NCBI RefSeq assembly: GCF_022788635.1
Contig: NZ_CP076024.1
Location: 1,550,001-1,614,000 of the forward strand
Length of the DNA: 64,000 bases
Reading direction: 5' to 3'
Source: Methylobacter sp. S3L5C
GTDB lineage: Bacteria; Pseudomonadota; Gammaproteobacteria; Methylococcales; Methylomonadaceae
In this document: one piece after another, positions 1,372 through 62,298 of the stretch
Layout of the letters: the number at the start of each line of letters is the position of its first letter
Numbering within the stretch: the first letter of the stretch is position 1
The notes under the pieces: generated by a model
What the model saw: the letters and a program-made list of their open reading frames with translations, nothing else
What the model was told of the DNA's origin: nothing
The model's database searches: none
Program-made: the position numbers and the translations under genes

Positions 1372-1420
1372 TATTACTTTTTATCTGTGTTACGTATGCT
1401 TTATGGTTTTTTATAGTACT

Positions 1421-1516
1421 GAAGCGTGACGGGGTTTGCAACCTTGTTACCCACGTTTTGAAAGCTACTGAAGTCTTCAAACGTGTTGGCCGGGGTTGGA
1501 GCGCCGGCCGGCGTTG
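1421..1516 (+). repeat. Dispersed double-hairpin repeat, copy A
   Basis: The stretch starts GAAGCGTGACGGGGTTTGCA and continues through CACGTTTTGAAAG and CTTCAAACGT to GGCCGGGGTTGG. The same order of words is found at 47512-47592 and 47914-47995. In the better preserved copies it forms two GC-rich hairpins built on GGGGTTTGTAACCCC-type palindromes. This copy is degenerate in both stems. It lies between the methyltransferase start and the end of the next minus-strand gene. Confidence 0.6.
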
Positions 1517-6046: not shown

Positions 6047-6445
6047 ATGGCTGAAAATATTGAAGCATTATTTAAATAAACTAGTTGCGGGGGGTTATGT
6101 TATTGGCGTCAGCGATGGTGAGCGGAAAAATGCATTTATCGCAGCGTGGGTGATGCCCGTTTCTTTTACCCCGTCTTTGCTGGCGATCAGCATTAATCCG
6201 GAACATTATTCTTATCAGTTGTTGCAAGCTGGGGGCGTTTGTACGGTCAATATTTTGGGGCAAGACAATCTACCGTAGAGGAGCATTTTGGTCGCTCAGC
6301 CCAAGATAAAATAAGTGGCTTTCAATGGCAAAAAGGTAAAGCCGGTGCGCCGATTTTATTAGCAAGCCTGACATATTTTGATTGTGAGGTCAGTCATTAC
6401 GCCGATGCCGGCGACATGGATGGCAGTAGTCAGTTATATGAATAA
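6047..6445 (+). pseudogene. Flavin reductase-like protein, decayed
   Basis: An intact copy would start MAENIEALFKKL, run through YVIGV-DGE-KNAF-AAWVMPVSF-P and end with a TMDG-S-LYE-type tail. Here the ATG at 6047 gives MAENIEALFK and then a stop at 6077. The reading frame continues in another frame (LVAGGYVIGVSDGERKNAFI to VNILGQDNLP, stop near 6276) and resumes in a third frame with VEEHFGRSAQDKISG to CEVSHYADAGDMDGSSQLYE. So there are two frameshifts. There is also an internal deletion near 6412, where about 30 residues before the DMDGSS tail seem to be missing. The family is small FMN-binding flavin reductases common in methanotrophs and cyanobacteria. The gene is almost surely non-functional. 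Confidence 0.8.
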
Positions 6446-6680
6446 TTTGTTCTTGTTATCCACGAAAATTACAAAAAAATCAAATAGATAGGAGGCTGTA
6501 GATGCCTATAGATTGTTACCTGACGGTGAGTTAATATCTTGATATATTTGGTTTTTCTTGGATTCGTTTGTTTTGGGCTTTGGTGTTCGAGTCGCTATTT
6601 TAAAACGAGGCAGGCACCAAAGTTAGCCAAGGTGTTGCTCGGAAAACGCCAGTTGTTAGCGTCAAAAAATAGCGGGTTTT
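6446..6680. other. Intergenic region with inverted repeats
   Basis: No gene is visible. A strong-looking ribosome site (AGGAGG at 6490-6495) precedes only a ten-codon frame, MPIDCYLTVS, which may be the stump of a lost gene. CGCTATTTT at 6593-6601 pairs with AAAATAGCG at 6666-6674, and GCTTTGGTG near 6577 pairs with CACCAAAG near 6615. This gives a possible folded 3' end for the minus-strand dolP-like transcript. Confidence 0.4.
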
Positions 6681-9424: not shown

Positions 9425-9771
9425 AGAGTTGGCTGGACAGTCGCTGTTTTATCGTCATGATAAAATGGAGGAAAGTCCGGGCTCCATTGGGCAGGGTGCC
9501 AGGTAACGCCTGGGAGGCGTGAGCCTACGGAAAGTGCCGCAGAAAATATACCGCCTGTCATTTATGATCGGTAAGGGTGAAAAGGTGCGGTAAGAGCGCA
9601 CCGCGCAACTGGTAACAGGAGTGGCATGGTAAACCCCACCCGGAGCAAGATCAAATAGAGGGACAGACGCGTGGCCCGCGCGGTTCCTGGGTAGATTGCT
9701 TGAGCTGCAGGGTGACTTGCAGTCTAGATGAATGACTGTTCTCGACAGAACCCGGCTTACAGGCCGACTCT
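9425..9771 (+). ncRNA. rnpB: RNase P RNA, bacterial class A
   Basis: The catalytic RNA of RNase P, which matures tRNA 5' ends. The conserved core is easy to read: GAGGAAAGTCCGGGCTCC near 9463-9484, CAGGGTGCCAGGTAACGCC, GGGTGAAAAGGTGCGGTAAGA, AGCGCACCGC, the GTAAACCCCA region, CAAATAGAGGGACAGACG and the final GACAGAACCCGGCTTACAGG. The ends pair: GAGTTGGCTG at 9426-9435 with AGGCCGACTC at 9761-9770. A T-run at 9771-9780 follows. Its place between rsmI and mraZ is usual for gammaproteobacteria. Confidence 0.97.
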
Positions 9772-9780
9772 TTCTTTTTT
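9759..9780 (+). terminator. Probable rnpB terminator
   Basis: The closing helix of the RNase P RNA (CAGGCCGACTC) is directly followed by TTTCTTTTTT at 9771-9780. The terminal stem plus U-run could end transcription, as at other rnpB genes. Confidence 0.5.
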
Positions 9781-46932: not shown

Positions 46933-47463
46933 ATGTTTGAAATAGAATACGAATTTGGCGAAGAAGATTTAATTCATTTTAATGAAATTCAATTCATGAA
47001 GAATGACGAGATACAGTTCAACATTAAGAAAAATCGCTGGATAGTGCCTGGTATGATGGGGCTTATCGGGGCTTTTTATTATTTTTATTATGGTGATAAG
47101 AACTCGGCAGGCTATGTACTGGTTATTGCCGTTCTTTGGGCGCTGCTGTCACCTAAAATAATGATGTTGGATTTACGCAGACAAATCCTTAAAAATTATA
47201 CCCCTAAAGAAAAAATCAATTTATTTGGTACTTACACCTTAACCATAGACCCTGCCAATCCTAATTATTTACTGGAGCAATCACCCAGTGGTAAAAATAA
47301 AATGGCATGGGGGGATTTAGTCAGAGTGGAATATGGCAAACGCTATGTTTATATCTATATTGATTTAAGCACCGCTCTGGTTATTCCCGTCGATAAGATA
47401 AAAAAAGGTAATCTTGAGCAGTTCGCTGAACAAGCCGAAAAAATGATTGAACGATTTGCGTAA
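46933..47463 (+). CDS. YcxB-like membrane protein
   Basis: A 176-residue protein with two close membrane helices (about residues 36-50 and 57-75). A cytosolic C-terminal domain follows with NLFGTYTLTIDPANPNYLLE, MAWGDLVRVEYGKRYVYIYI and ALVIPVDKI, the pattern of the YcxB-like C-terminal domain (PH-like fold). The function is unknown. It follows ndh by 30 bases with no terminator, so the pair may be co-transcribed. It ends just upstream of the second copy of the dispersed repeat. Confidence 0.7.
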   Translation: MFEIEYEFGEEDLIHFNEIQFMKNDEIQFNIKKNRWIVPGMMGLIGAFYYFYYGDKNSAGYVLVIAVLWALLSPKIMMLDLRRQILKNYTPKEKINLFGTYTLTIDPANPNYLLEQSPSGKNKMAWGDLVRVEYGKRYVYIYIDLSTALVIPVDKIKKGNLEQFAEQAEKMIERFA

Positions 47464-47511
47464 AAAATATAAGACGCAAGGCAAAAGGTGAAAATATCAT
47501 GGATATTTGCC

Positions 47512-47592
47512 GAAGCGTGACGGGGGGTTGTAATCCCGTCACTCACTCCTTGCGACCTTCAAACGTTCTGGTCGGGGTTACAAACCCCGACC
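47512..47592 (+). repeat. Dispersed double-hairpin repeat, copy B (best preserved)
   Basis: GAAGCGTGACGGGGGGTTGT opens the unit. The first palindrome TGACGGG...CCCGTCA folds on itself, CTTGCGACCTTCAAACGTT follows, and a second perfect palindrome GGTCGGGGTT/ACAAACCCCGACC closes it at 47592. Copies A (1421) and C (47914) share the order of words. It lies right after the YcxB-like gene and may also act as a terminator. Confidence 0.7.
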
Positions 47593-47683
47593 AGTTTAGT
47601 AGATTTTTGTCAATGGTACTTCGTTTAAGCTCGATGAACGGCATTCCGTTTTCCAGTATCGCTAGTTGGCGAAGAAGCATTTT

Positions 47684-47908
47684 ATGATCGCGAGAATATT
47701 ATTTGGCATTTTCGGTTTGCTGATGATTCTGTTAGGAGTATTGATTATTGTGTTTGACTCGACGGCGCGATGGGAATGTATGGTATTAGGTATTTGCTTT
47801 TGCATTATTGGTGTATTCATGGTTCGCGAGTCGTACTGCGGAACTACTGGCACTGTTGTGCAAGCTCTTGGTACTTTTATTGAGGGCTTTTTCAGGGGGT
47901 TATATTAA
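47684..47908 (+). CDS. Small two-helix membrane protein
   Basis: A 74-residue protein with two hydrophobic helices: IARILFGIFGLLMILLGVLI (residues 2-21) and CMVLGICFCIIGVFMV (about 33-48). A soluble tail with TGTVVQALGTFIEGFF follows. I do not recognise a family. The ATG at 47684 has a modest GAAGAAG site upstream; a TTG at 47666 would add six residues. The gene sits between two direct copies of the dispersed repeat, 91 bases after one and five before the next, so repeat-flanked transfer is possible. Confidence 0.55.
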   Translation: MIARILFGIFGLLMILLGVLIIVFDSTARWECMVLGICFCIIGVFMVRESYCGTTGTVVQALGTFIEGFFRGLY

Positions 47909-47913
47909 CAAAC

Positions 47914-47995
47914 GAAGCGTGACGGGGTTTGTAACCCCGTTACTCACGTTTTGTAAATCCTTGCGGTGTTCAAACATTCCGGTCAGTTACAGGTT
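47914..47995 (+). repeat. Dispersed double-hairpin repeat, copy C
   Basis: Opens GAAGCGTGACGGGGTTTGTA, with a good first palindrome (ACGGGGTTTGTAACCCCGTTA), then CTCACGTTTTG, CTTGCGGTGTTCAAACATT and a decayed second palindrome GGTCAGTTACAGGTT. It is in the same orientation as copies A and B and lies just upstream of the MAPEG gene. Confidence 0.65.
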
Positions 47996-48016
47996 AAAAA
48001 AACAATAAGGGTATCC

Positions 48017-48412
48017 ATGATTACGTCACTATATGCATCGCTCTTAGCTTTATTGATAGTGAGACTTTCTCTTTCAGTAATAAAACTTCGTAGAAAAAAC
48101 CGGATAATTATTGGTGACGGGGGAAATGAAGAGCTGCAATTAGCAATTCGCACGCAAGCTAATGCATTGGAATATATTCCTATAACACTGTTGCTTTTAT
48201 TAGCGCTCGAATTAAACGGAGCGCCGAAAATACTTATCCATATATTGGGAGCCACGCTGATAATAGGGCGAATAATTCATGCGATCGGTCTTCCCGCAAA
48301 GAATCTCCGGAAAAGAGTATTGGGAATGCAGATAACCATTTATCTATTAATTGCCTTGGCAATACTGAATATACTATTCTTGGTATTTTCTGGGCCGCTT
48401 AAACTTTATTAA
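48017..48412 (+). CDS. MAPEG family membrane protein
   Basis: A 131-residue protein with four membrane helices and the MAPEG pattern: LSVIKLRRKNRIIIGDGGNEELQ, then IRTQANALEYIPITLLLLLALELNG, GRIIHAIGL and a last helix. MAPEG proteins include membrane glutathione transferases and eicosanoid enzymes; bacterial ones of this size often belong to the YecN branch of unknown role. The ATG at 48017 has AAGGG upstream at seven bases. It stands between repeat copy C and the ABC-F gene, all on the plus strand. Confidence 0.75.
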   Translation: MITSLYASLLALLIVRLSLSVIKLRRKNRIIIGDGGNEELQLAIRTQANALEYIPITLLLLLALELNGAPKILIHILGATLIIGRIIHAIGLPAKNLRKRVLGMQITIYLLIALAILNILFLVFSGPLKLY

Positions 48413-61908: not shown

Positions 61909-61945
61909 AAAAAAAGGCTCTTGCCAAATAACAAGAGCCTTTTTT
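61909..61945. terminator. Bidirectional terminator between TM2 gene and cspA
   Basis: AAAAAAAGGCTCTTG and CAAGAGCCTTTTTT pair in a 14-bp stem with an eight-base loop, with A- and T-runs on each side. It can end both converging transcripts. Confidence 0.88.
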
Positions 61946-61964
61946 GAAACTGAGTGGTTATCGC

Positions 61965-62168
61965 TTATTTGGGATAAACATTAACAGCGGTTAAGCCTTT
62001 TGGTCCAGATTCAATGTCAAAAGTCACGGTTTGACCTTCAATCAGGGTTTTAAAGCCATCACCCTGAATTACGGAATGATGAACGAAAACATCTTCGCCG
62101 CCATCAGAAGGTGCTATAAAACCAAAACCTTTAGTGTTGTTAAACCACTTTACAGTGCCTGTTGCCAT
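61965..62168 (-). CDS. Cold-shock protein
   Basis: A 67-residue CspA-family RNA chaperone with [20 protein letters not shown] (RNP1 is KGFGFI), DVFVHHSVI (RNP2), [14 protein letters not shown] and the end AVNVYP. It is the usual size. An AGGAG ribosome site lies ahead of the ATG at 62168. The upstream 130 bases may hold the promoter and a leader, but I could not show a cold-box. It stands alone on the minus strand between the CBS gene and the shared terminator. Confidence 0.93.
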
Positions 62169-62298
62169 TTTGAAAAACTCCTAAAATAAAACTTACGGTT
62201 AACACAGAACTACAACATTGATAACCGGGAGATCCACTCGTTCAACATCTTTACTCTGCTGGGGGAGGATTGTACTGCTATTTTCAACAGGATGCCAT

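Follow-up and report, generated by a model that had tools for sequence, protein, structure and literature searches.

The three repeat units in the window, the 64,000-nucleotide stretch of the Methylobacter sp. S3L5C genome analysed here, are very probably REPIN-like miniature mobile elements, that is, inverted pairs of REP palindromes with a short spacer, multiplied now or formerly by a cognate transposase that we call RAYT-D. RAYTs (REP-associated tyrosine transposases) are HUH/Y1 single-strand nucleases and are regarded as transposases that became domesticated and disseminate REPs. An earlier note on this DNA had left the choice between a non-autonomous mobile or REP-type family and a structured RNA. 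The first reading agrees with the dozens of copies, the patchy presence among congeners, the REP doublet and the linked RAYT lineage, whereas the second finds neither an Rfam match nor a clear wobble strand.

A full unit measures ~97 bp rather than the ~80 bases first estimated and runs from TGAAGC through the palindrome GTGACGGGGTTTGTAACCCCGTYAC, the inner box CTCACGTTTT, a spacer of ~15-20 bp, the inner box CTTCAAACGTTT and the palindrome CGGTCGGGGTTRCAAACCCCGACCG to GGCATC. Both palindromes are GC-rich, and the second is the first one inverted and somewhat diverged. The inner boxes read ACGTTT and AAACGT, and the ends are conserved as (C)TGAAGC and GGCATC(G). Two inverted REP palindromes around a short spacer are the arrangement of a REPIN. 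The covariance model R1 matches all three window units on the forward strand (Table 1), confirming their places and common orientation. The second palindrome, earlier ascribed to every copy, is intact in copy 2, diverged in copy 1 and reduced to a remnant in copy 3.

Table 1. Repeat units in the window (window positions) and RAYT genes of the S3L5C genome (genome positions)
Feature	Position	Strand	Basis or score
Unit copy 1, full length, right palindrome diverged	1420-1515	+	R1 covariance model, 91.1 bits, E 5.9e-16; sequence
Copy 1 left palindrome GTGACGGGGTTTGCAACCTTGTTAC	1426-1450	+	sequence
Copy 1 right palindrome, diverged	1487-1510	+	sequence; hairpin in centroid fold as single-stranded DNA
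Unit copy 2, spacer shortened, the 'best copy' of the earlier note	47511-47598	+	R1, 79.1 bits; single-stranded DNA fold z -5.26
Copy 2 left palindrome GTGACGGG...CCCGTCAC	47517-47542	+	sequence, fold
Copy 2 inner AACGTT box	47562-47567	+	sequence; AACGTTT box conserved in REPs beside RAYT-D
Copy 2 right palindrome CTGGTCGGGGTTACAAACCCCGACCAG, inverted relative of the left one	47568-47594	+	sequence, fold
Unit copy 3, right palindrome lost	47913-47997	+	R1, 59.8 bits
Copy 3 left palindrome GTGACGGGGTTTGTAACCCCGTTAC	47919-47943	+	sequence; exact 23-mer match
Copy 3 right-palindrome remnant	47980-47991	+	sequence compared with full copies
RAYT-D gene, broken	4339912-4340407	-	
Class A RAYT gene, uninterrupted, best-scoring intact RAYT of the genome	4590806-4591246		199.8 bits to NF047646
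Class B RAYT gene, uninterrupted	4576007-4576465		

The units had been described as free of open reading frames. Mechanically called ORFs do cross them: 120 aa at 1239-1601 in copy 1; 62 aa at 47499-47687 and 63 aa at 47355-47546 (minus strand) in copy 2; and 66 aa at 47808-48008, 90 aa at 47983-48255 (minus strand) and the start of 47966-48412 in copy 3. We judged these ORFs to be spurious except for 47966-48412, whose start we judged to be called too long because an in-frame ATG lies at 48017. Copy 3 is one of three genome copies scored as overlapping chosen ORFs of at least 100 aa. The interval 47464-48016, between a 176-aa gene and the gene that begins at 48017, is strongly variable among the congeners compared, with other inserts and partial units, and may be a frequent landing site of mobile DNA. 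Rfam matches in the window are RNase P RNA class A at 9425-9775 and the cspA thermoregulator at 61911-62293 on the minus strand (101 bits, in a non-enteric genome).

Further copies, for which the earlier note had proposed a count, are abundant. The R1 model, built from 15 copies, gave 92 matches at E ≤1 on both strands of the 4.8-Mb genome, which correspond to 54 distinct places after opposite-strand duplicates, overlapping matches and matches below 35 bits were left out. The common orientation of the window copies does not extend to the genome, in which 32 of the 54 copies lie on the plus and 22 on the minus strand. A search with the 23-mer GCGTGACGGGGTTTGTAACCCCG, allowing up to 3 mismatches, gave 28 genome matches (with some right ends among them, and one place matched on each strand and so counted twice) compared with 0 for the reversed control. 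Across 61 genomes, 25 contain a model match at E ≤0.001: the S3L5C genome, 23 of 34 congeners and 1 of 26 genomes outside the genus (G057, of the same order, with 2 matches). Presence among congeners is patchy, ranging from 0 to at least 68 copies, where high counts are lower bounds since 68 candidates were scored per genome.

The copies are dispersed and mainly intergenic, as REPINs are. By automatic ORF choice, 51 of the 54 lie outside chosen ORFs of at least 100 aa, and the genes flanking these 51 are tandem in 36 cases, convergent in 11, divergent in 3 and undetermined in 1. REPs are described in the text of Di Nocera et al. (PMC3733652) as sitting mainly between unidirectional and convergent genes. 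Four units with a period of 131 bp form a tandem array at genome positions 155975-156463 (L125). Repeats of different families cluster: next to several units (flanks of L017, L021, L031 and L032) stands a further repeat that is identical or similar to TCGGGTTAGGCGCCAGCCGTAACCCGACA.

Analysis of the stems showed compensatory changes, which the earlier note had proposed to look for. Among 51 distinct copies, 12 of 22 stem pairs have changes on both sides, compared with a mean of 2.4 in shuffled alignments and with none of 500 shuffles as high. In the same copies, 94.3% of the cells pair in the stems, and at most 51% once the partner is slid. The alignment was fitted to the model's own structure, and gene conversion within a palindrome could add to the covariation. 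A central stem between ACGTTT and AAACGT was tried and left out of the model, as none of its pairs had changed on both sides. The earlier note was ready to give up its reading if neither further copies nor covariation turned up; both are present. A longer variant of ~140 bp has similar ends and the inner stretch TTTACC...CTAACGCAAACTTTTTGAATAA (L015, L022, L028 and L253:2509-2941), and it makes up an array upstream of RAYT-D in the genome G028.

RAYT-D is our label for a divergent RAYT lineage of 167 aa. The protein of G028 scores 83.2 bits against NF047646 (cut-off 80), and that of G030 falls just below with 78.6 bits; Pfam gave no match at E ≤0.001. His61 and Tyr132 are invariant in all 18 uninterrupted sequences and His63 is kept in 17 of them (Gln in L378). 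The sole PDB sequence match at E ≤10 is TnpA-REP (4ER8, E 1.3e-4). The AlphaFold model (mean pLDDT 78.1, pTM 0.75) is matched best by the same structure in Foldseek (E 8.1e-8, TM 0.57), where every one of the 30 matches at E ≤0.001 is a Y1/IS200-type transposase. RAYT-D thus carries the HUH motif, the catalytic tyrosine and the TnpA-REP fold of a RAYT. A search of the whole order at E ≤1e-35 located it in 27 of 311 genomes and 10 of 50 genera.

The palindromes of the units accompany this lineage, a likely candidate for the RAYT-type transposase that the earlier note had proposed to look for. The core GGGGTTTGYAACCCC, with up to 3 mismatches, lies within 600 bp at 26 of 28 RAYT-D loci, from 9 of the 10 genera, a count that omits L285 and L386, each the second piece of a broken gene. 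At other RAYT ORFs the core lies within 600 bp in 7 of 70 cases (5/32, 2/31 and 0/7, the first two for class A and B ORFs), a count that omits three RAYT-D loci and takes a gene in two pieces (L243) twice. The two RAYT-D loci without the core are L375, from the tenth genus, which has similarly built hairpins with another core, and L380, at which no hairpins were found. The palindromes vary by genus (ACGGGGTATGTTACCCCGT in L371, GGGACGGGATGTGTATCCCGTCCC in L375) and are palindromic throughout, as expected if REP and RAYT change together.

Within the genus, RAYT-D is uninterrupted in three congeners in which R1 units adjoin the gene: five unit matches lie just upstream in L253, units lie on both sides in L259, and in L254 one unit lies just upstream and another ~1.7 kb downstream. 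The gene is broken in S3L5C (G000), G013 and G002. The G002 remnant is flanked by two units of 90 and 87 bits, and the G013 remnant has the core 163 bp upstream. In S3L5C the core lies 152 bp upstream, with a weak model match of 26 bits, and a worn copy of the longer unit variant was recognised by eye downstream. RAYT-D loci are thus flanked by the same REPs, as the cognate RAYT of a REPIN is, with the gene of S3L5C itself broken. Within the genus, at least 20 copies are present in each of the 6 genomes that have RAYT-D, be it whole or broken (S3L5C included), compared with 7 of the 29 without it (Fisher p 0.001, relatedness ignored). RAYT-D was not found in those seven congeners, one of which, G034, is called 100% complete; gene loss, draft gaps or another RAYT would each explain this. 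RAYT-D is likely the partner transposase of the units.

The REPs beside RAYT-D share features that a transposase might read. The consensus of 47 oriented cores from 27 loci is approximately GC-GGGA-CGGGGTTTGYAACCCCG-TCCC-WAACGTTT, where L380 (without a core), cores near the 600-bp edge and cores without the loop TTT were dropped. The REPs point inward: 23 upstream of the gene point towards it (+) and 8 away (-), and 12 downstream point towards it (-) and 4 away (+). GTAG and GTGG are absent from the 12 nt 5' of the core in all 47, so that these are not canonical GTAG-REPs. At the position of that tag, units of the window type mostly carry GAAG in the left half and an inverted GATG in the right. 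The G of the 5' foot is kept in 43 of the 47 and the C in 42, and each base of the AACGTTT box 3' of the hairpin is kept in 35 to 46. On this pattern we put at even chances that RAYT-D, with its repeats, is a RAYT lineage in its own right, belonging to one gammaproteobacterial order and using a recognition code of its own, in which a GC foot and a 3' AACGTTT box replace the GTAG guide and two unlike ends (GTGAC-type and GGTCG-type) give an oriented ~97-bp element and the ~140-bp variant.

Target-site duplications, also suggested as a check, were not found. Exact duplications of 3-9 bases flanking 42 full copies (selected by us, 16 from S3L5C and 26 from relatives) showed no excess over shuffled flanks, in a comparison of exact k-mers that would miss decayed duplications. 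The counts were 7 of 42 vs. 10.2 in shuffles for k=4, 2 vs. 3.4 for k=5, 1 vs. 0.6 for k=6 and 1 vs. 0.2 for k=7 (17 of 100 shuffles as high). The lack of duplications is as expected for a single-strand (IS200/IS605-type) mechanism. Comparison with the nearest congener, G034 (40 of 254 first-look candidates scored), gave two-sided matches at 8 of 16 probed sites, and the remaining 8 gave one-sided, repeat-mediated or no matches. Both genomes have the unit at 349921, 1655041, 2357887 and 4109, and G034 has a partial one at 1983558 and 3694990. At window copy 1 and at 4572127 the unit is absent from G034, with borders that are not cleanly readable. The 16 flank pairs searched against three congeners returned occupied sites, partial copies and replaced DNA and no clean empty site; from the linkage to RAYT-D we infer that the units have moved.

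A mechanism in keeping with these features can be proposed. When the locus becomes single-stranded, for instance as lagging-strand template, both palindromes would fold into hairpins. A RAYT-D dimer would recognise the hairpin together with the GC foot on its 5' side and the AACGTTT box on its 3' side, the tyrosine of the enzyme would cut beside the foot, and the ends would be joined. The unit would thereby be moved or copied between genes through a single-strand intermediate, without duplication of the target. In the text of PMC8266576, REP cutting and rejoining are reported in vitro for group 2 and 3 RAYTs on their own REPs at CT or CA sites, the GTAG motif is said to matter in the biochemistry of these groups, and REP dissemination is still called poorly understood. 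For the copies in genomes now without RAYT-D, we infer that the same enzyme made them. The unit population of S3L5C is probably decaying because its own RAYT-D gene is broken, in line with copies such as copy 3 that miss one palindrome.

A conventional MITE, derived by deletion from a DDE transposon and bounded by the two related palindromes as its terminal inverted repeats, would account for unit ends that are inverted relatives of each other and for the patchy distribution. However, target-site duplications are not in excess over shuffled flanks at the 42 copies, each end of a unit is itself a hairpin, and the linked transposase is a Y1/HUH RAYT, which leaves this origin highly improbable. 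A structured RNA repeated in many transcripts, be it a cis-regulatory element, a terminator or a small RNA, would have stable, covarying hairpins in intergenic positions seldom between divergent genes (3/51), all of which the units have. Counting all wobble pairs on the unit strand (58 G.T vs. 30 A.C) also seems to favour it, but the counts are 31 vs. 29 once the single pair with G.T as its commonest state is set aside. A folded transcript had been suggested by a first pair count (23 G.T vs. 6 A.C), which with 51 distinct copies rests on that one pair. In addition, the window units have no Rfam match, the units within tandem gene pairs lie on the strand of the genes 21 times and on the opposite strand 15 times, and copy number varies from none to dozens among congeners. 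The structure thus does not appear to be kept on one transcribed strand: the palindromes are kept, with no sign that the fold of one transcript is what is kept. We consider this reading the most improbable of those weighed here.

The same type of REPIN might instead be mobilised by a class A or class B RAYT. Both genes are uninterrupted in S3L5C, where RAYT-D is broken, and the seven congeners without RAYT-D have many copies. The class B gene also has units at a distance of ~2 to 4 kb, and in G016 a unit directly adjoins it (L233). However, class A is flanked by a different REP, GGATGGGCTGAGG..., as is its relative in M. psychrophilus, and class B in G016 stands among GTTCCCACGCTCC...GGGAAT repeats. 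The core accompanies few ORFs of either class compared with RAYT-D, and mobilisation by class A or B therefore appears very unlikely. Class A had been tried as the partner and was rejected with a different REP alongside and the core within 300 bp at 0 of 79 RAYT loci from named genomes; L054 has two cores at 332 and 403 bp from its RAYT.

Other RAYT/REP associations were observed in the genus. The intact class A RAYT (L043:1230-1420 and 1970-2075; genome 4589375-4592698) has a further REP family, GGATGGGCTGAGGCAACGATGCCCATC, on its flanks, and this family is arrayed beside the class A relative of M. psychrophilus (L045). The nearest class A protein among named genomes is that of Methylobacter psychrophilus Z-0021 (90%), a match that does not prove the genus, as RAYTs can be transferred. 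The class B RAYT of G016 stands among GTTCCCACGCTCCAGCGTGGGAAT repeats (L233:5600-5760 and 6250-6450), possibly a third RAYT/REP pair of the genus. The S3L5C genome also has interrupted copies of a Y1 transposase (PF01797) at 675343, 3906723, 4064553, 4201523 and 4260533 and an uninterrupted copy at 2931137, which are apparently IS200-type elements. It contains one gene for ammonia/methane monooxygenase subunit A (PF02461, 429 bits), and the host is probably a methane-eating bacterium.

The units closely resemble the REPINs or BIMEs with RAYTs of E. coli (Y/Z2) and P. fluorescens SBW25 as set out in the texts of PMC3116915, PMC2817692 and PMC6006769. They share the inverted REP doublet with spacer, the intergenic location, dozens of copies, clusters, a cognate RAYT flanked by inward REPs, and REPs that change with the RAYT. 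The E. coli REPtron, in the text of PMC6006769, also pairs two REP subtypes, Y and Z2. In contrast to these systems, the units here lack a GT[AG]G tag; they have the 5' GC foot and, on the 3' side, the AACGTTT box instead, and their long stems around GGGGTTTGYAACCCC are nearly perfect.

Subclasses 2.6 and 3 are reported in the text of PMC6006769 to have atypical REPs that lack the tag. TnpA-Y1 subclass 2.6 (RAYT group 5), as characterised there and in table 1 of that paper, agrees in part with RAYT-D in its motifs, namely the HuH motif (NH[IL]H in 17 of 18 RAYT-D sequences, NH[LIV]H in the subclass) and the Y motif (YIH[EQD]NP in 15 of 18, close to YIH[QN]NP), and likewise has REP-like structures without GT[AG]G and with copies elsewhere in the genome. 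At the WQ motif of the subclass, RAYT-D has WM, WQ, WH or WR. However, the structures of subclass 2.6 are called weaker in that text, whereas the palindromes here are strong; its members are mostly Bacteroidetes, whereas the RAYT-D hosts all belong to the order of the window, the sole order searched; and the HuH-Tyr spacing of RAYT-D is ~70 residues compared with a median of 82. TIRtrons with TIRYTs, in the text of Di Nocera et al. 2013 (PMC3733652), similarly have tyrosine transposase genes with long inverted repeat flanks, some self-complementary, and some genomic dimers. However, 20 of 26 TIRYTs fall in subclass 2.1 with an extra C-terminal domain according to the text of PMC6006769, whereas RAYT-D has only ~167 aa.

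In the literature searched, in its text rather than its figures, we found no description of this repeat and no core sequence in print. The listed titles of literature on Methylobacter and repetitive extragenic palindromic sequences concern no such repeats, and the word start 'methylo' is absent from the main text of PMC3733652, PMC6006769, PMC8266576 and PMC2817692. The kind of system, a REPIN with its RAYT, is already known; what sets the RAYT-D lineage apart is the absence of a GT[AG]G tag and the presence of the AACGTTT box.

Intergenic hairpins of this kind could be annotated in error as terminators or small RNAs, and the family accounts for dozens of them in these genomes. As a GTAG-free lineage whose cognate hairpins are conserved and whose enzymes are intact in several genera, RAYT-D offers a natural test of what a RAYT reads. 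In the S3L5C genome, the REPs of the units seem to have survived as a population longer than their own transposase.
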